64,000 nt of DNA from an uncultured Myxococcales bacterium (GTDB lineage Bacteria > Myxococcota_A > Polyangia > Polyangiales > Polyangiaceae). The position numbers and the translations under genes are program-made. The notes under the pieces are model-generated. The model was given only the letters and a program-made list of their open reading frames with translations, was not told the origin of the DNA and did no database searches. Below are positions 8,224-15,344 of the stretch, piece after piece; position 1 is the stretch's first letter, and the number at the start of each line of letters is the position of its first letter. Location of the stretch: contig CALMUT010000087.1 in the NCBI GenBank assembly GCA_937872925.1, forward strand, positions 1 through 64,000, given 5' to 3'.

Positions 8224-9795
8224 TCACGACGCTGAGAGGCTCGTGCTCATCGCCTGTGGGCGCAGCTCGATCGTTTGGTCCAGCTGTAGACTTTCCAAGA
8301 ATTCCCGGTCGTGACTCGCGATCACCAGCCCGCCCGGCCACGCCAGCAATACCTGACGCAGAGCACCCGCGCCCGCGAAGTCGAGGGCATGCACCGGTTC
8401 ATCCAGGACGAGTAGCTCCACTGCGGGCCGGCGCTGCAGTAGACACACCAGCGCAGCGCGTGCACGCTCTCCGGGGCTAAGGGACGACAGCGGGCGCTCC
8501 GCCAAAGCCAAGGGGAAGCCATGGGCCAGGAGCAGTCCGGCCGCGGCCTCCGGCGACTGCACTCCCGAGTCCCAAGACAATCGCTCCAGCAAGCTCTCCT
8601 GACTCATCCAGTCGAGCGCGCCCTGTGCGATCACACCGATCCGCTCGAACTTTCGTCGGGCGTTGCCGGTAGACGCGGCTAGGTCGCCCGTCATGATGCG
8701 GAGCAGACTGGTCTTGCCAGCGCCGTTGGCTCCCGTCACCGCCACGCGTTCCCGGCCGATGCTGAGACTGAGATTCTGGAACAACGGCTTGCCCTCCACG
8801 TGAGCACTGACGTCTTGCAAGACCACCAGAGACTCACCGGTAGGCGGCGGCAGTTTGGGCATGACGGCTTCTAGGGGAAGCGCGACTGCGAGTGCCCGCC
8901 GCGCTGCTTTTGCCCAGCTGCGCGCGGCGTGGAGGCGGCTTTGGCGAACCGCCTCCATTCGCCCTTGCTTTTCTTGTGCGTAGCTGCGCTTCTGGTTGAG
9001 TCGCATGCGGGGGGTCGCGCGGCCCAGCTCTCGCACGCGGCCTACGTTCTTTTTCCGCTCACGACGCCTGCGGTACTTCTCGCTGTGGGCTTCTTGTTGC
9101 TCCAAGGCGTTGAGACGTCGCACATACTTGCGTTGATTGTCCGCTGCTTCCTGCGCCAACCTTGCCTCGAGCACTTCCAGATCGCCCGGGATGTAGCGAC
9201 AGCCGGATTCGGCCATGACGAGGAAGTGCTGGAAACAGCCGAGCAGCCGTCGCTGATGCGAGACCACCAAGAGTCCGCCGTCCCAGTCTTTGAGCCAACC
9301 AACCAGCCAGGCGATGCCGACGTCGTCCAGGTCCTGGGTCGGTTCGTCCAAGATCAGGAATTCCGGATGACGGATCTTCGCATCGAGCAGACAAAGCTTG
9401 CGCCGCTCGCCCGGGCTGCAGTGGCTCGTGCCACGCAGTGCACGGTGGTCCGACAGCCCCGCCGGGGCCAGTTCCCACCAAGCGGCTTCCCGTCCGCGGG
9501 CGCCGGGCTGCGACAGGAGTTGGTCCAGTGCGTCGGTGGGTCGGTTCGGCTCTAGTTGTTGGGGGACGAACCACGGCGTCGTGCGACGCACCACCCGGCC
9601 ACCGCTGATCCCTTCGTCACCCGCCAGAAGCCGTAGCAACGTAGATTTGCCCACGCCATTGCGCCCAAGAATCGCTGCCTGCTCGCGGCCGATGCGTAGG
9701 TTCAGTTTTTCGATCAACGGTCGCCCCGCCGGGGTCAAGAGATCGAGACCTCGAACCTCGAGCAGCGGCGCAGCCGTTTGAGATGAAGCGCTCAT
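8224..9795 (-). CDS. ABC-F family ribosome-protection ATPase
   Basis: 523 residues with two ABC ATPase domains and no membrane segment, the ABC-F arrangement. Domain 1 (about 10-205) has Walker A GRNGVGKST, signature CSPGERRK, Walker B FLILDEPTQDLD and the switch His in VVSHQRRLL. Domain 2 (about 325-510) has GANGAGKTS, LSPGERAR, LLVLDEPVHALD and IASHDREFL. The linker (about 206-310) is long and strongly basic, as in members that reach the ribosomal P-site tRNA. ABC-F proteins act on the ribosome E site; antibiotic-resistance members displace drugs from the peptidyl transferase centre. The gene overlaps hflX by four bases (ATGA), so it is coupled to another ribosome-rescue factor behind an attenuator-like leader. 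Whether it is a resistance or a housekeeping ABC-F cannot be settled here. Confidence 0.88.
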   Translation of the reverse strand: MSASSQTAAPLLEVRGLDLLTPAGRPLIEKLNLRIGREQAAILGRNGVGKSTLLRLLAGDEGISGGRVVRRTTPWFVPQQLEPNRPTDALDQLLSQPGARGREAAWWELAPAGLSDHRALRGTSHCSPGERRKLCLLDAKIRHPEFLILDEPTQDLDDVGIAWLVGWLKDWDGGLLVVSHQRRLLGCFQHFLVMAESGCRYIPGDLEVLEARLAQEAADNQRKYVRRLNALEQQEAHSEKYRRRRERKKNVGRVRELGRATPRMRLNQKRSYAQEKQGRMEAVRQSRLHAARSWAKAARRALAVALPLEAVMPKLPPPTGESLVVLQDVSAHVEGKPLFQNLSLSIGRERVAVTGANGAGKTSLLRIMTGDLAASTGNARRKFERIGVIAQGALDWMSQESLLERLSWDSGVQSPEAAAGLLLAHGFPLALAERPLSSLSPGERARAALVCLLQRRPAVELLVLDEPVHALDFAGAGALRQVLLAWPGGLVIASHDREFLESLQLDQTIELRPQAMSTSLSAS

Positions 9796-11177
9796 GATTG
9801 CTCATCCTCCAGACTGTGCATCACGGCAGCCACGACGAGCGGGTCGCCCTCCAACTCGAAACGCATGCCAAGCTCTTCGGGCTCTGCCGACAGCACACGA
9901 CAACGACCGTAGATGGTGGTCAGTGCAGACGTGGCGGCGTAGGGCACAAAGAGCCTCACGCGGCGTTGGTCTTTGCGAACGGACTGCAGCAACTTCTCTT
10001 TGAGGCGCTGCATACCATCCGCATCGTGACCACTGACCAGTGCGAACTCGTGTGGCCCGCACAGATCCTGGAGTTCTTCCGAGGACGGCGTTGCGGGCAC
10101 GCGGTCCAGCTTGTTGAAGACATAGAGCCGCGCAACGTCGCCGGCCCCAAGTTTGTCCAGCAGTGCATGCGTAGTGGTCAGATGAAACCGCCACTCGGGA
10201 TCGGAAACGTCCACGACCAACGCCAAAAGCGACGCTTCTCGCGCTTCGGCCAGGGTGGACTCAAAGCTCGCGAATAGACGCTCCGGCAGTCGCCGGATGA
10301 AACCCACCGTGTCGCTCAGCAAGACGTCGCCACCGTATCGACTCAGCGAGCGCGAAGTGGTGTCGAGAGTTTCAAACGGCATGTCCTTGGCCGAGAGCCC
10401 GGCTTCGGTGAGCGCATTCATCAGCGTCGTCTTGCCCGCGTTGGTGTAACCCACCAGCACGATGCGTTTACTCTGACTTCGTCCCTGACGCTGCGTCCGG
10501 CTCGAGCGACTGATGCGTTCGAACTCCCGACGCAACTCCGCAAGCCGGCCGTCGATCTGGCGCGACATCAATTCGCTTTGGGTTTCGCCCGGGCCGCGCC
10601 CGCCCATGACGCCACCCGCTTGTTGGTCCATCACTAGGCCGACTCCGCGGATCCTCGGTCGTAGGTACTCCAGATGCGCGATCTCCACCTGAATGCGAGC
10701 GCGTCGAGTGCGCGCATGTCGGAGAAACACATTCAGGATGACCGCCTCGCGATCGCACACAGCCAGCCCGGTCGCTTCTTCTAGATTACGCGTCTGAGAC
10801 GGACTGAGCTCCGCGTCGAGAACCAGCAGATCGGCGCCGCATTCTGTCGCTTGCTCCACCAGGTTTTCATAGGTTCCGCGACCGATGAAGGTGCGCGGGT
10901 TCGGCTGCGAAAGGCGATACGTCGCATGCCCCACCACCCGATCGCCCTGCGCCTGGACCAGCGCGAGGATCTCTCCGAGTTGCGCGCTCTTCACGGCATC
11001 GCTGTCCCAAACGCCCAAACAGGCAACAAAACACGAGTTCTTGCCGTCTTCAGCCGTCAAATGCGGCGCGGCCCGCTGCGCCCGACGCGTCCACTCTAAA
11101 ACGGCGGCTTCCAGTCGGCCGTCGTCTGCAAGCGGAGCTTCGCCATGCTCCTCAATAGGATTGGATTCGAACTTCAT
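9792..11177 (-). CDS. hflX: ribosome-splitting GTPase HflX
   Basis: 461 residues, slightly longer than the E. coli protein. The HflX N-terminal domain (about 45-215) includes the family signature GGRGPGETQ near residue 206. The G domain follows with G1 GYTNAGKTT, G3 DTVGF and G4 NKLD. HflX splits stalled ribosomes, and some homologues confer macrolide or lincosamide resistance. ATG at 11177 is preferred to the adjacent GTG at 11180 because the GGAG at 11183-11186 then sits at normal spacing. The gene is first in an operon with the ABC-F gene, which it overlaps. The 5' leader is about 215 bases long and carries its own short ORF and hairpins. Confidence 0.92.
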   Translation of the reverse strand: MKFESNPIEEHGEAPLADDGRLEAAVLEWTRRAQRAAPHLTAEDGKNSCFVACLGVWDSDAVKSAQLGEILALVQAQGDRVVGHATYRLSQPNPRTFIGRGTYENLVEQATECGADLLVLDAELSPSQTRNLEEATGLAVCDREAVILNVFLRHARTRRARIQVEIAHLEYLRPRIRGVGLVMDQQAGGVMGGRGPGETQSELMSRQIDGRLAELRREFERISRSSRTQRQGRSQSKRIVLVGYTNAGKTTLMNALTEAGLSAKDMPFETLDTTSRSLSRYGGDVLLSDTVGFIRRLPERLFASFESTLAEAREASLLALVVDVSDPEWRFHLTTTHALLDKLGAGDVARLYVFNKLDRVPATPSSEELQDLCGPHEFALVSGHDADGMQRLKEKLLQSVRKDQRRVRLFVPYAATSALTTIYGRCRVLSAEPEELGMRFELEGDPLVVAAVMHSLEDEQS

Positions 11178-11268
11178 CACTGCTCCAAAAGCTGTTGGCG
11201 CGAGTCACCGGGTCGCAAGGCACGACTGCGGTGATCGCCATCTCGAATACACGAACGCCCATTCGGTC

Positions 11269-11285
11269 CGGTGCCGGGAGCACCG
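11269..11285 (-). promoter_or_regulatory. second leader hairpin before hflX
   Basis: CGGTGC and GCACCG form a 6-bp stem around a 5-base loop, about 90 bases upstream of the hflX start. It could be part of the folded 5' leader and might compete with the larger hairpin at 11304. Pairing was read by eye. Confidence 0.4.
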
Positions 11286-11303
11286 CCGCGAGACGTCAGC
11301 GAA

Positions 11304-11337
11304 CGCCCCAGTCAGGTAGAAATACGCTGACTGGGCG
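11304..11337 (-). promoter_or_regulatory. attenuator-type hairpin after leader ORF
   Basis: Reading the minus strand, CGCCCAGTCA pairs with TGACTGGGGCG (one bulged G) around a 13-base loop. The stem begins only four bases after the stop of the short leader ORF. A ribosome stalled on that ORF would therefore physically block the 5' arm. No T-run follows, so the effect could be on Rho-dependent termination, on an anti-hairpin, or on translation rather than a simple intrinsic terminator. Confidence 0.6.
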
Positions 11338-11341
11338 AGGA

Positions 11342-11365
11342 CTAAATGAAGCTTGAAGTGCGCAT
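11342..11365 (-). CDS. 7-residue leader peptide MRTSSFI upstream of hflX
   Basis: ATG CGC ACT TCA AGC TTC ATT TAG on the minus strand, preceded by a near-perfect Shine-Dalgarno (GGGAGGAATT at 11370-11379) with 7 bases to the ATG. This ribosome site is stronger than that of most real genes nearby. The peptide is Ser/Thr-rich at positions 3-5. Chloramphenicol- and linezolid-type drugs are known to arrest ribosomes when Ala, Ser or Thr is the penultimate residue. With the hairpin immediately downstream and an hflX/ABC-F operon behind it, a ribosome-stalling leader is the simplest reading. Confidence 0.65.
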   Translation of the reverse strand: MRTSSFI

Positions 11366-11398
11366 TGTGAATTCCTCCCGAGTGCAGGGAGAGACCTA

Positions 11399-11427
11399 GC
11401 TATACTTCACTCTCGGGGACTCGGCAA
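11399..11427 (-). promoter_or_regulatory. candidate sigma-70 type promoter of the hflX operon
   Basis: On the minus strand TTGCCG and TATAGC are separated by exactly 17 bases, giving a start of transcription near 11392. This would place the strong Shine-Dalgarno of the leader ORF about 13 bases from the RNA 5' end and make the whole leader about 215 bases long. A 12-bp direct repeat (GCTCAGAAACGC on the plus strand, at 11433 and 11447) lies just upstream. Confidence 0.5.
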
Positions 11428-11575: not shown

Positions 11576-12196
11576 ATGGCGGGGAGAGACTTCGGATCGG
11601 AGGCGGCGCGCGATCGCGTCAAACGCAAGATCGCCGATTTGGAAAAGCTCACCTCGGCGGAGATCGTCGTCGCGATCCAACCTAGTTCCGGGAGCTACCA
11701 ACACGCTGACTACCTAGTTGGCTTTGCTCTGTCTTTCCTCAGCGTGCTGGTCTTCGTGTTTCATCCACGCGCGATGCGCAGCGACCTCTTCCCGCTGGAG
11801 CATCTTGTCGCCTTCATCTTCGGTGCCGCTGCCACGCGCTACCTGGCCCCTGTGCGCAGGCTGCTGAGCACACGGCGCCTAATGACAGAGAATGTGGAGC
11901 GCGCGGCCAAGGCGGCATTCGTCGATCTGGGAGTGGCAGGCACCCGCGCCCGCACCGGGATCTTGGTCTACGTATCGCTGCTCGAACGTTGCGTGTCCGT
12001 GGTTGCTGACAGCGGCGTGCCGGAGGCGGAGCTCCTTCTAGCCCAGCTGCGAATTGATGCAAGCGAGGCCATTCGCGCCGCGGATGTCGACGGTTTCGTG
12101 GCCGCCCTGACCGCGCTTGGCCCCCACCTCGCCGAAGCGCTGCCACGCGGAACCGACGACGAGAACGAATTGCCTGATGAAGTAGGTGCGGCGTGA
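11576..12196 (+). CDS. TPM-domain membrane protein
   Basis: 206 residues. The opening RVKRKIADLEKLTSAEIVV phrase is typical of TPM (Psb32/TPM_phosphatase) domains. Here the domain is interrupted by two hydrophobic segments at about residues 46-62 and 74-92. A second conserved part (ARTGILVYVSLLE, residues 126-138) matches the family's central strand and helix. TPM proteins are linked to photosystem or membrane-protein maintenance, and some have acid phosphatase activity; the role here is unknown. The stop overlaps the start of the Tim44-like gene by four bases (GTGA junction), so the pair should act together at the membrane. Confidence 0.72.
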   Translation: MAGRDFGSEAARDRVKRKIADLEKLTSAEIVVAIQPSSGSYQHADYLVGFALSFLSVLVFVFHPRAMRSDLFPLEHLVAFIFGAAATRYLAPVRRLLSTRRLMTENVERAAKAAFVDLGVAGTRARTGILVYVSLLERCVSVVADSGVPEAELLLAQLRIDASEAIRAADVDGFVAALTALGPHLAEALPRGTDDENELPDEVGAA

Positions 12197-13764
12197 ACGC
12201 GCGCGTTCGGATCTTCATCGCGTCGCTCTTTGCGCTGTTCGTGTTGGCGTCGACCACGGTGCTCTTTGCACGACCAGGTGCCGGGCAGAGCTACAGTGGA
12301 AGCTCGAATAGCAGCTACAGCAACTCCAGTTCCTCTTCGAGCAACTCATCGTCGTCCTACGGTTTCGGGAATTCGAATTCCAGCCCCGGCAACGAAGAGG
12401 CGCTCGGTGCCCTGATCGGCCTGGCTATGGAATATCCTGCTCTGAGCGTGCCGCTCTTGTGTGGTTTCTTGGTTTTCCTACTTCTGAAACACCGAAACGA
12501 ACACATCGCCCAGGGCTGGTACAGCAGCGGGGCTCTGAAGAAACGTATGCACCGCGCCAGCGCGGAGATGGACGTCGCGCGTTTTCGCTCACATAGCCAG
12601 AACGCGATGCGAGCCAAGCTCGAGCACTTGCGACGCTATGACGCGGACTTCTCGCTGATCATTTTTGAAGACTTCTTGGATGCGCTGTATCGCGAAGCAC
12701 ATTTGGCGCGCGGTCGCGGAGAGCTGGAAAACTTGAGCCCGTTCTTGAGCGAAGCCGCGCGACAACGCCTGGCGAAGTTCCCGAAGGCAGGGGTGGACAG
12801 CGTCCTGGTCGGCGCGCTCCGTTTCGTGCAGATAGAAGATCTGAACGTGGACTCCCGGCCGATTCGAGTCAGCGTGGAGTTCGAGTCGAACTACAGCGAA
12901 GAGCAGGCAGATTCGGCAGAAACGACGACTTACTATGCGCGCGAGCGCTGGGTGCTGCAGCGACAAAAGACGGCGCGCTCCCGAGCACCGGAACGCGCGC
13001 GCGTGCTTGATTGTCCCAATTGCGGTGCGCCCACAGACCGCGTCGTGAATCGCAAGTGTGGCTATTGCAATGAGACGGTTACCACCGGCGAGCACGACTG
13101 GCTCGTAACGGAGGTGGTCAGCCTGGAGCGCGAGCAGCGGCCTCCGGCCCTGACCAGCGACGTACAGGAGCGCGGGACGGACCTGCCAACGATCATCGAT
13201 CCGCAATCCGAAGCGCGTTTCGAGGCGCTGTATCGGCGGGATCCGGAGCTCAGCTGGTCGAGCTTCCAAGCGCGCGTGGAGTTGATCTTCGGGGAACTGC
13301 AAGGCGCGTGGAGCGCCCAAAACCTGGAGCCGGCGCGGGCATTCTTGAGCGACAACTTGTATGAGAGTTGGCAGTACTGGGTAGCCGCGTACAAACGCGC
13401 TGCGCTGCGCAACACGACCGAAAACGCGCGCGTGGTGCAGATCATCGCCGCCCGGGTCAGTCGGGATAAATACTACGACGCCATCACCGTGCGCGTTTTT
13501 GCGACGGGGCTGGACTACACCGTCGACGCAAAGGGCAAGCTAGTTACGGGCAGTAGGAAGAAGGAGCGCGCCTACAGTGAATACTGGACCCTGATCCGCG
13601 GGCGCAGCGCCAAAGGCCCGCCCAAATCCGACCTGACGTGCCCGAATTGTGGTGGTCCGTTGCAGATCAACATGTCCGGCGTATGCGAACACTGCCAAGT
13701 CAAGGTCACGGCCGGCGATTTCGACTGGGTGCTGTCCCGGGTCGAGCAAGACGAGTCGTACTAG
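12193..13764 (+). CDS. Tim44-like membrane protein with two zinc ribbons
   Basis: 523 residues with a signal peptide (about 1-26), a striking Ser/Asn/Tyr low-complexity stretch (33-66), and a membrane segment near 77-95. Two Tim44-like domains follow (about 130-260 and 335-470). Each is followed by a zinc-ribbon pair: CPNCGAP...CGYC and CPNCGGP...CEHC, each about 16 residues apart. Both ribbons end in a similar TxGxxDWxxxxV phrase, so domain plus ribbon has been duplicated. Tim44-like domains bind membranes and, in mitochondria, tether the import motor; in bacteria the role is unsettled. It is coupled to the TPM gene, a pairing also seen for lemA/TPM-type membrane clusters. Confidence 0.72.
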   Translation: MNARVRIFIASLFALFVLASTTVLFARPGAGQSYSGSSNSSYSNSSSSSSNSSSSYGFGNSNSSPGNEEALGALIGLAMEYPALSVPLLCGFLVFLLLKHRNEHIAQGWYSSGALKKRMHRASAEMDVARFRSHSQNAMRAKLEHLRRYDADFSLIIFEDFLDALYREAHLARGRGELENLSPFLSEAARQRLAKFPKAGVDSVLVGALRFVQIEDLNVDSRPIRVSVEFESNYSEEQADSAETTTYYARERWVLQRQKTARSRAPERARVLDCPNCGAPTDRVVNRKCGYCNETVTTGEHDWLVTEVVSLEREQRPPALTSDVQERGTDLPTIIDPQSEARFEALYRRDPELSWSSFQARVELIFGELQGAWSAQNLEPARAFLSDNLYESWQYWVAAYKRAALRNTTENARVVQIIAARVSRDKYYDAITVRVFATGLDYTVDAKGKLVTGSRKKERAYSEYWTLIRGRSAKGPPKSDLTCPNCGGPLQINMSGVCEHCQVKVTAGDFDWVLSRVEQDESY

Positions 13765-13851: not shown

Positions 13852-14253
13852 TTACCCGGCTTTCGGCGTCTGTGCTTTTCCGCGCCGGCTACCGAGCGCC
13901 ACGCCCGCCACGGCGAGCAGGCCAAAGGCCAGCGTCAGCCCAACGGGAAGACCGGAATCATCGTGTGTGTGATTGTGCGCTGAACTTTCGTGCGACGTCT
14001 GGGGATTCGCTCGCTCGATGGGCTGATTGCGAACGCATACCAGCGCGTCGGCGACGCTGCGGCAGGTGCCGATGTAGCGGGAGTGTTCGGCGTCCTGCCA
14101 CGCGCAAGGAGCGTCCAAAGACCCGTCAGCGCATGCGTCCCAGGCCGCGCGATCACCGTGGCCGCGGTGGGCCTGCGCAGCGCCCGTGCACGTCACGACA
14201 CAGAAAAGCGCGGCAACGAGTCCCGGGGCGCGTAGAGCGCGTCGGCGCTTCAT
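13852..14253 (-). CDS. small exported protein with His-rich stretch and C-terminal membrane helix
   Basis: 133 residues. An N-terminal signal peptide ends near TGAAQAHRGHGD, leaving a mature N-terminus with alternating His. Four Cys lie between residues 40 and 75. A second His-rich stretch (SSAHNHTHDDS) comes just before a C-terminal hydrophobic segment (GLTLAFGLLAVAGVAL) and a short basic tail. This is consistent with a membrane-anchored periplasmic metal-binding protein, but no family was recognised. Last gene of the five-gene operon; its start overlaps the YHYH gene stop by four bases. Confidence 0.62.
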   Translation of the reverse strand: MKRRRALRAPGLVAALFCVVTCTGAAQAHRGHGDRAAWDACADGSLDAPCAWQDAEHSRYIGTCRSVADALVCVRNQPIERANPQTSHESSAHNHTHDDSGLPVGLTLAFGLLAVAGVALGSRRGKAQTPKAG

Positions 14254-15344
14254 TGGCAGTCGCTCGCGCAGTTTGCGGTTGTTTCCGGACCGTCACAGGT
14301 CCCATCACCGCAGCAAGGCGAACCCGCAGGAACATCCGCGCAAGCAGTGACTGCGCCGCCGGGGCCCGTACCCGTGGCAGTCCCCACAGTTTCGCCGCGG
14401 AAGCAGCCGATGAACATGTTCTCGCCCGCAGACGCGACGTGATAGTGGTAGCCGCGCTCGTCGTCCGTGTGTCCGCGGCAGGTGTCCAAGTCTTTCGGTT
14501 CGACTCCGTCTTCCCCGGCCATCGCGTGCATCGCGAAGCCGTCCAGGGCGTAGCCGATCAACGGCGCGTGACCGTCGGCCTGCTTTACCTCCGCCGAGCA
14601 ACCCGTTGCGGCGTGGTAATGGTAGCCAACGTGGGGGTTCACGTGACCGCCGCAGTCGTCAAAAGCGGCGATGGTGTAGGCCACCAAAATGGCCTGCACC
14701 GGCGCAGGCGGATCGAAGTGCGCGCCATTGAGCGCAACGCCCACCTTGCTAGCGCCGCCGATCTCCACTGGCGTGGCCCGAACGACGGGATGGATCGGGA
14801 TCAAGATTTCCGCAGCGATGCCGCCGTTCACGTAGTCGAGGGAGCACTCCACGCAGTGGTTTTGATACGCCGGGTCGACGTCGGGACGGGCGGCCGCTTC
14901 ACACGCCGCCTGCGTGTCGGTGACGCGGATGGCACCTGTGGCTTCGTCGTACAGCTGCCACTTTGCGTCGTTGTAGAAGGTTGCGAGGTTCTTGATGAAG
15001 GCCCCGTCCGCGTCGTACGCGTTGCCGGACTCGATCCAAATCCCGGCCTGCTCCGGACCATCCGCAATGTTACGCGGGCAAAAGGGTCCGACGGGATGGT
15101 CCGCTGGTTTGCCGGCAATCGGGATCCGGTAGCAGGTCGTGGTTGCCCCGTTGGAAAGCGTGCACTCGACTTCGGTGATGTCCCCGGTCAACGCGCTCGC
15201 GATGAAGTTCTTGGGGTCGAGCCCGTTCGAGCTCGCTACCGCTGCATCAGCCGGATCCGTGTTGGCATTGGAGCCACCACAACCGACGTAGGCGGTAACA
15301 CACGCCAGGGTAGCGAACGAAAGCGCTCGGTGGGTTGGTCTCAT
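14250..15344 (-). CDS. YHYH-domain lipoprotein
   Basis: 364 residues with a signal peptide and lipobox AYVGCGG. The YHYH domain spans roughly 95-320 and shows the two defining motifs HVGYHYHAATGC and RGYHYHVASAGEN, with GYALDGFAMH between them. The C-terminal tail is a Cys-rich SPCCGDGTCDGPET segment of a type common in myxobacterial surface proteins. YHYH proteins are secreted and of unknown function; the clustered His suggest metal binding. The start overlaps the stop of the preceding small lipoprotein gene (ATGA). Confidence 0.85.
   Translation of the reverse strand: MRPTHRALSFATLACVTAYVGCGGSNANTDPADAAVASSNGLDPKNFIASALTGDITEVECTLSNGATTTCYRIPIAGKPADHPVGPFCPRNIADGPEQAGIWIESGNAYDADGAFIKNLATFYNDAKWQLYDEATGAIRVTDTQAACEAAARPDVDPAYQNHCVECSLDYVNGGIAAEILIPIHPVVRATPVEIGGASKVGVALNGAHFDPPAPVQAILVAYTIAAFDDCGGHVNPHVGYHYHAATGCSAEVKQADGHAPLIGYALDGFAMHAMAGEDGVEPKDLDTCRGHTDDERGYHYHVASAGENMFIGCFRGETVGTATGTGPGGAVTACADVPAGSPCCGDGTCDGPETTANCASDCQ

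Follow-up and report, generated by a model that had tools for sequence, protein, structure and literature searches.

A conserved seven-codon leader ORF and its putative role as a ribosome-mediated attenuator of hflX/ABC-F operons in Myxococcota

We describe a conserved family of short upstream ORFs (uORFs) preceding operons that encode a second HflX paralogue (HflX2) and an ABC-F ATPase, mostly in Myxococcota. The window analyzed here, a 64,000-nt stretch of DNA from an uncultured Myxococcales bacterium, carries one such operon (Table 1). Computational analysis of orthologous loci reveals conservation of the uORF, constraints on its peptide, specific complementarity of the uORF to the start region of its own hflX, and release of that region in silico when the uORF is occupied by a ribosome. 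Judging from sequence comparison, the short ORF upstream of hflX is a real, conserved attenuator element, and it probably acts as a ribosome-mediated translation attenuator, in which arrest at the uORF stop would open hflX-abcF.

In the mechanism we propose, a promoter would drive a leader whose first element is the 7-codon ORF. Following normal release of the peptide, the uORF RNA would base-pair to the hflX Shine-Dalgarno region, 80-437 nt further 3' (164 nt in the window), and so silence hflX together with ABC-F, whose translation is coupled to it. A ribosome arrested on the uORF, most likely at its stop codon with the conserved penultimate Phe in the peptidyl-transferase centre, would cover the uORF strand and free the Shine-Dalgarno region, allowing HflX2 and ABC-F to be made. 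By analogy with the streptococcal leader peptide MsrDL, the trigger would be a ribosome-targeting drug binding the tunnel or the PTC, against which HflX2 and ABC-F would presumably protect. We give even chances to a more specific proposal: an unreported family of 7-residue stop-codon arrest peptides (M-aromatic-hydrophobic-x-x-Phe-x-stop), often leaderless, would sense a ribosome-targeting compound that these bacteria encounter and switch on a two-protein rescue operon by undoing a long-range duplex of uORF and hflX start site.

Table 1. Operon and leader features in the window
Feature	Position	Strand	Basis and remarks
-35-like TTGCCG	11422..11427	-	sequence
-10-like TATAGC	11399..11404	-	sequence; 17-nt spacer to -35
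Shine-Dalgarno of leader ORF, GGGAGGAA	11372..11379	-	sequence; same in closest ortholog, L007
Leader ORF MRTSSFI-TAG, 7 codons	11342..11365	-	conserved M-x4-F-x-stop uORF in orthologs
5' arm of predicted long-range helix, within uORF (CACU + GCUUCA)	11347..11360	-	duplex and full-leader folds
Hairpin 1	11304..11337	-	begins exactly 4 nt 3' of uORF stop
Hairpin 2, CGGTGCTCCCGGCACCG	11269..11285	-	MFE and centroid folds of the window leader
3' arm of predicted helix, UGGAGCAGUG	11178..11187	-	duplex, folds; includes hflX Shine-Dalgarno GGAG (11186-11183)
hflX2, GTPase, second HflX paralogue	9792..11177	-	TIGR03156; clade support 100/100; ATG at 11177
ABC-F ATPase	8224..9795	-	PF00005 x2; 4-nt overlap with hflX2 stop

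The leader parts claimed in the initial annotation are all present on the minus strand: promoter pair, Shine-Dalgarno, MRTSSFI ORF, hairpins and hflX/ABC-F overlap. The window uORF reads ATGCGCACTTCAAGCTTCATTTAG (codons ATG CGC ACT TCA AGC TTC ATT TAG). Relatives also show a TTG-type -35 and a TA-rich -10 at 16-18 nt spacing, and the window promoter pair gave no match in a scan with a stricter consensus. At many loci the -10-like hexamer ends 9-10 nt 5' of the uORF ATG, with the TTG-type -35 located 16-18 nt further up; this distance from -10 to ATG suggests that the uORF may be leaderless in many loci, unlike the window and its sister L007, which have a strong Shine-Dalgarno. Scanning 21 genomes for the combined promoter and uORF pattern yielded nine matches, eight of them at this leader, and none with a reversed control; the ninth was discarded as an artefact that lacks a stop codon and ends in TGG. 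In the window's own genome one of two matches was real, and no regulon of other genes under the same leader was found in the 21 genomes. An Rfam search of the window returned no family match.

The window HflX2 scores 330 bits against TIGR03156 (cut-off 216.75), and the GTPase motifs GYTNAGKT, SDxVGF and FNKxD are invariant in A1; another, higher-scoring hflX lies on contig C210 of the same genome. The first ~25 residues of HflX2 (MKF.SKPIEEH.EVPLADDGR; window 11103-11177, minus strand) are near-invariant across the clade and fall outside known HflX domains and alignments to solved HflX structures. For the ABC-F protein, the ribosomal protection-like family NF000355 is the best by a wide margin, with 244 bits in the window and 240-291 bits across seven orthologues; all stay below the cut-off of 380, so that a resistance role for ABC-F is putative, and the proteins represent an unassigned ABC-F subfamily. 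Its interdomain linker (window 8900-9150, minus strand) has a tip, RRRxRKKNxGRxxELGRATPRxRLNQKRSYAQEKQGRM, that is strikingly conserved between phyla and likely faces the PTC or the tunnel. On the plus strand, a divergent pair at 11576-13764 encodes a TPM-domain protein and a Tim44-like membrane protein with zinc ribbons, and is not part of the leader-hflX-ABC-F unit. A secreted-looking protein with YHYH motifs (GYHYHA, GYHYHV) is encoded at 14250-15344 on the minus strand, adjoining small lipoprotein-like ORFs.

Searching 59 genomes (the window's own and relatives) identified six close orthologues of HflX2, with 55-75% identity and well apart from other HflX proteins. Orthologues were present in 13 of 184 genomes order-wide and in 10 of 379 phylum-wide; together with a GTDB scan, these searches gave a non-redundant set of 33 loci with readable leaders, window included, which constitute one HflX clade (tree support 100/100). 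The distribution is patchy, the sole other genome of the same genus having no orthologue. Most members are Myxococcota (Enhygromyxa salina, Plesiocystis pacifica, Paraliomyxa miuraensis and many bins), and further members come from MAGs labelled Thermodesulfobacteriota, Pseudomonadota, Planctomycetota, Lentisphaerota and Eremiobacterota (labels as filed). An ABC-F gene lies 3' of hflX in 29 of the 31 loci with sequence reaching far enough; matches come in pieces at L074, ABC-F is missing at L080, and only fragments are seen at L079. In this last locus, from a Kofleriaceae MAG, the uORF (MKFVRI) deviates as well as the ABC-F being fragmented, which would fit a joint decay of leader and operon. 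A plasmid search for the operon gave no match.

A short ORF is found 5' of hflX at all 33 loci. It spans exactly seven codons in 28 of them (27 with ATG, one with GTG), and the penultimate residue is Phe in 31 of the 33 peptides, with consensus M-[W/F/Y]-[I/L]-x-x-F-[V/I/L/T]-stop. The 7-mers are MRTSSFI (window), MIISSFI, MWISRFV (twice), MWMHRFL, MFLRSFR, MFISTFV, MLITYFS, MWLNEFV, MWLFHFV, MRLFSFV (twice), MFMLSFL, MYKSHFQ, MWTPSFQ, MWQYTFV, MVHWYFT, MYYCNFL, MWKYRFV, MDPTQFR, MILFTFK, MLINYFT, MFILNFT, MVIFQFF, VYSSNFV, MFILYFT, MIYFAFV and MNYSRFV; MRLRPLFFV (L010), MYTYFQ and MTNFTSNFL have other lengths with a penultimate Phe, and the two deviant loci carry MKFVRI (L079) and MFMCWYVFQTW. 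Because part of the uORF set was chosen by its penultimate Phe, an unbiased comparison has to count ATG-initiated 7-codon ORFs with Phe6 within 500 nt upstream of hflX. Such ORFs occur at 27 of the 33 loci, where dinucleotide shuffles predict 0.225, and at none of 72 other hflX loci. Among hflX genes outside the family, MKLMFW at L126 was rejected, as it lies within upstream coding sequence. Single 7-codon ORFs are common in any sequence, yet these counts refute the idea that a long leader merely contains such an ORF by chance, an explanation to which we assign a negligible probability. They bear out the earlier proposal that a leader ORF precedes the hflX/ABC-F operon of this myxobacterial genome, and this ORF is conserved in close relatives.

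Residues 2, 3 and 7 and the A/G/P counts played no part in ORF choice, and can be used to assess constraint on the peptide, with p-values that ignore relatedness. Among 26 distinct 7-mers, residue 2 is aromatic in 15 (p 4e-11) and residue 3 is I/L/M/V in 15 (p 1e-5); residue 7 is enriched for V/I/L (p 6e-6), and A/G/P are rare (3 of 130 positions, p below 1e-9). The window peptide has Arg2 and Thr3, without the aromatic residue 2. What the family conserves is Phe at codon 6, its spacing from the stop and an aromatic side chain at residue 2, whereas residues 3-5 vary freely (TSS, ISS, ISR, LRS, LNE, KSH, YCN and more), a pattern that points to stop-codon arrest rather than to an Ala/Ser/Thr context. 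The initial annotation had taken the Thr-Ser-Ser stretch to suit arrest by phenicol- or oxazolidinone-type drugs, and this part of it is not supported. Arrest set by a phenicol/oxazolidinone context, with Ala/Ser/Thr in the chain, could draw on Ser4 and Ser5 in the window and L007 peptides and on Ser/Thr5 in 10 of 28 7-mers, but residue 5 may otherwise be R, Y, N, H, Q, E or A and no Ala/Ser/Thr position is conserved; we consider it very improbable.

Pairing between the uORF and the hflX start region was analyzed on a 33 x 33 table of duplex energies, comparing matched with swapped partners after removal of row and column effects. Matched pairs are ~3 kcal/mol more stable than swapped ones (z = -6.8, 0/20000 permutations), and the 24 nt directly after the uORF stop show a weaker complementarity signal to the start region (z -3.9). 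Control pairings were null, both for the uORF against hflX positions -50..-25, -75..-50 and codons 4-12, and for the start region against the 30 nt 5' of the uORF or the stretch 25-48 nt past its stop. Predicted duplexes are exemplified by CAACTTCCT/AGGAAGTTG (L075), TGTTCTCCT/AGGAGAACA (L082) and AACTTCACTTC/GAAGTGGAGTT (L066). When a ribosome was modelled on 26 leaders by blocking the uORF and 10 nt past it, the opening cost of the hflX Shine-Dalgarno region fell by 4.0 kcal/mol on average, versus only 0.27 kcal/mol for an equal block elsewhere (difference p 3e-5). Across the family, leader RNA hides the start site in silico and a ribosome on the uORF relieves it, in agreement with the attenuator architecture suggested earlier.

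Phe6 is encoded by TTC throughout, including in genomes whose hflX favours TTT (0/10 TTC in the hflX of L063), indicating that Phe6 is also held at the nucleotide level; the invariant TTC is consistent with the place of this codon in the anti-Shine-Dalgarno strand. Together with the pairing itself, this feature would suit a uORF that is a mere anti-Shine-Dalgarno strand, whose peptide senses nothing and whose response is to the general rate of translation or initiation. We regard this account as improbable, given that the 7-codon length, in-frame Phe6, aromatic residue 2, hydrophobic residue 3 and A/G/P depletion are constraints at the peptide level, and that Phe6 persists where specific pairing is absent (L051, L083, L076, L072, L047). 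The frame, the length, the aromatic residue 2 and the retention of Phe6 in those leaders suggest that the peptide, too, is under selection.

In the window, pairing of CACU + GCUUCA with the 3' arm is moderate (4.8-6.5 expected pairs in full-leader folds; centred residual -0.9). For region -13..+3, the block lowers the opening cost from 7.5-9.1 to 5.1-5.9 kcal/mol, with no such drop for -16..-3, and the computed release varies with the region chosen, from -1.1 kcal/mol in one computation to +1.6 to +3.8 in another. The modelled pairing switch thus has good support across the family and is plausible in the window copy.

The initial annotation also featured a hairpin following the uORF stop. The first 45 nt past the stop fold at -20 kcal/mol in the window (z = -4.5 versus dinucleotide shuffles), the fold of the whole window leader being unremarkable by itself (z = -1.08), and across the 33 loci the sequence immediately past the stop likewise tends to form a hairpin (mean z -1.06, Wilcoxon p 8e-5). 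Its position is kept, its sequence is not conserved, and hairpin 1 was rejected as an intrinsic terminator for lack of a U-tract; pairing of the uORF with the hflX Shine-Dalgarno region is the better supported switch. A rival mechanism is transcription attenuation, in which the leader would terminate, intrinsically or through Rho, unless a ribosome were arrested on the uORF. Known hflX and ABC-F leaders (vmlR, hflXr, msrD) act in this way, and terminator-like hairpins occur in 4 of the 33 leaders (0.6 expected), mostly in A+T-richer genomes, and transcription attenuation may operate in these four. At ~36-60 nt past the uORF stop of L066, GCAGCAACGCTGCTGTTTTTC resembles a true intrinsic terminator, so that in this lineage a uORF of the present type may act through termination. 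The leaders, moreover, have a higher C content than hflX (skew 0.09 vs -0.01, p 2e-4), and Rho sites tend to be C-rich. No terminator-like hairpin was detected, however, in the other 29 leaders, that of the window included, and transcription attenuation has no need of specific complementarity between uORF and Shine-Dalgarno; as a general mechanism for the family we deem it rather unlikely, and favour translation attenuation.

Drug-inducible leader peptides of HflX and ABC-F genes had previously been described in Gram-positive bacteria. The present family, conserved in Myxococcota and in several further phyla, combines a distinct peptide consensus with a simple putative lock on the start site. 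It would bring drug sensing through the ribosome to a large group of bacteria that make antibiotics and prey on others in soil, with a single operon joining the splitting (HflX) and the protection (ABC-F) of stalled ribosomes. The family offers many natural variants of a candidate arrest peptide that can be tested in vitro, and the leader could serve as a reporter for the compound sensed by these bacteria.

In Gram-positive bacteria, hflX and ABC-F genes lie under drug-sensing uORFs that act mostly by transcription attenuation (PMC6310831, PMC8632094, PMC9226507, PMC10201436), and no earlier description of the present leader family was found among open-licence papers. The closest parallel is MsrDL (MYLIFM-stop) of streptococcal msrD, which blocks release factors with erythromycin bound and arrests at its stop codon with the involvement of Y2, L3 and F5 (PMC10314930). 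Both uORFs are very short and lie upstream of ABC-F. The penultimate Phe, the aromatic residue 2 and the Leu/Ile at residue 3 recur as trends in the present family (31/33 for Phe; 15/26 each for aromatic residue 2 and I/L/M/V at residue 3), the window peptide having Arg2 and Thr3. It is this combination, with the immediate stop as in MsrDL, that leads us to propose for our family the stop-codon arrest observed in MsrDL. MsrDL has six residues, a UAA stop, intrinsic-terminator attenuation and ABC-F alone, in Firmicutes (PMC10314930), whereas the present uORFs have seven residues, mostly UAG, mostly no terminator and hflX with ABC-F, mainly in Myxococcota; peptide length and sequence differ, and the likeness is solely one of working.

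The drug-induced hflXr/rli80 leader of Listeria monocytogenes (PMC6310831) and the uORFC-6-1 motif of Bacillales hflX (PMC8632094) likewise place a second hflX copy behind a leader ORF. Their 14-residue peptide with an RLR motif and their terminator/antiterminator folds are not characteristic of the present family, in which only MRLRPLFFV (L010) contains RLR, and in Listeria hflXr stands apart from the ABC-F gene lmo0919 instead of sharing one operon with it. Short uORFs also precede the ribosome-protection ABC-F genes vmlR (MIN), vmlR2 (MK[L/Q]), cplR (MR[I/M]) and lsaA (MAGN), with Shine-Dalgarno occlusion as an added layer in vmlR and cplR (PMC9226507, PMC10201436). These Gram-positive uORFs encode 3-4 residues and control is mainly by transcription termination. 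In the cat and ermC translation attenuators, a ribosome arrested on the leader ORF frees the Shine-Dalgarno of the resistance gene, as in the mechanism proposed here; they rely on local hairpins, whereas in the present family the uORF itself, often leaderless-looking, would pair across a structured spacer of 80-437 nt. Relative to the Gram-positive leaders, the novelty of this family, as read from its sequences, would reside in its peptide, its host range, its gene pair and the prevailing lack of a terminator.
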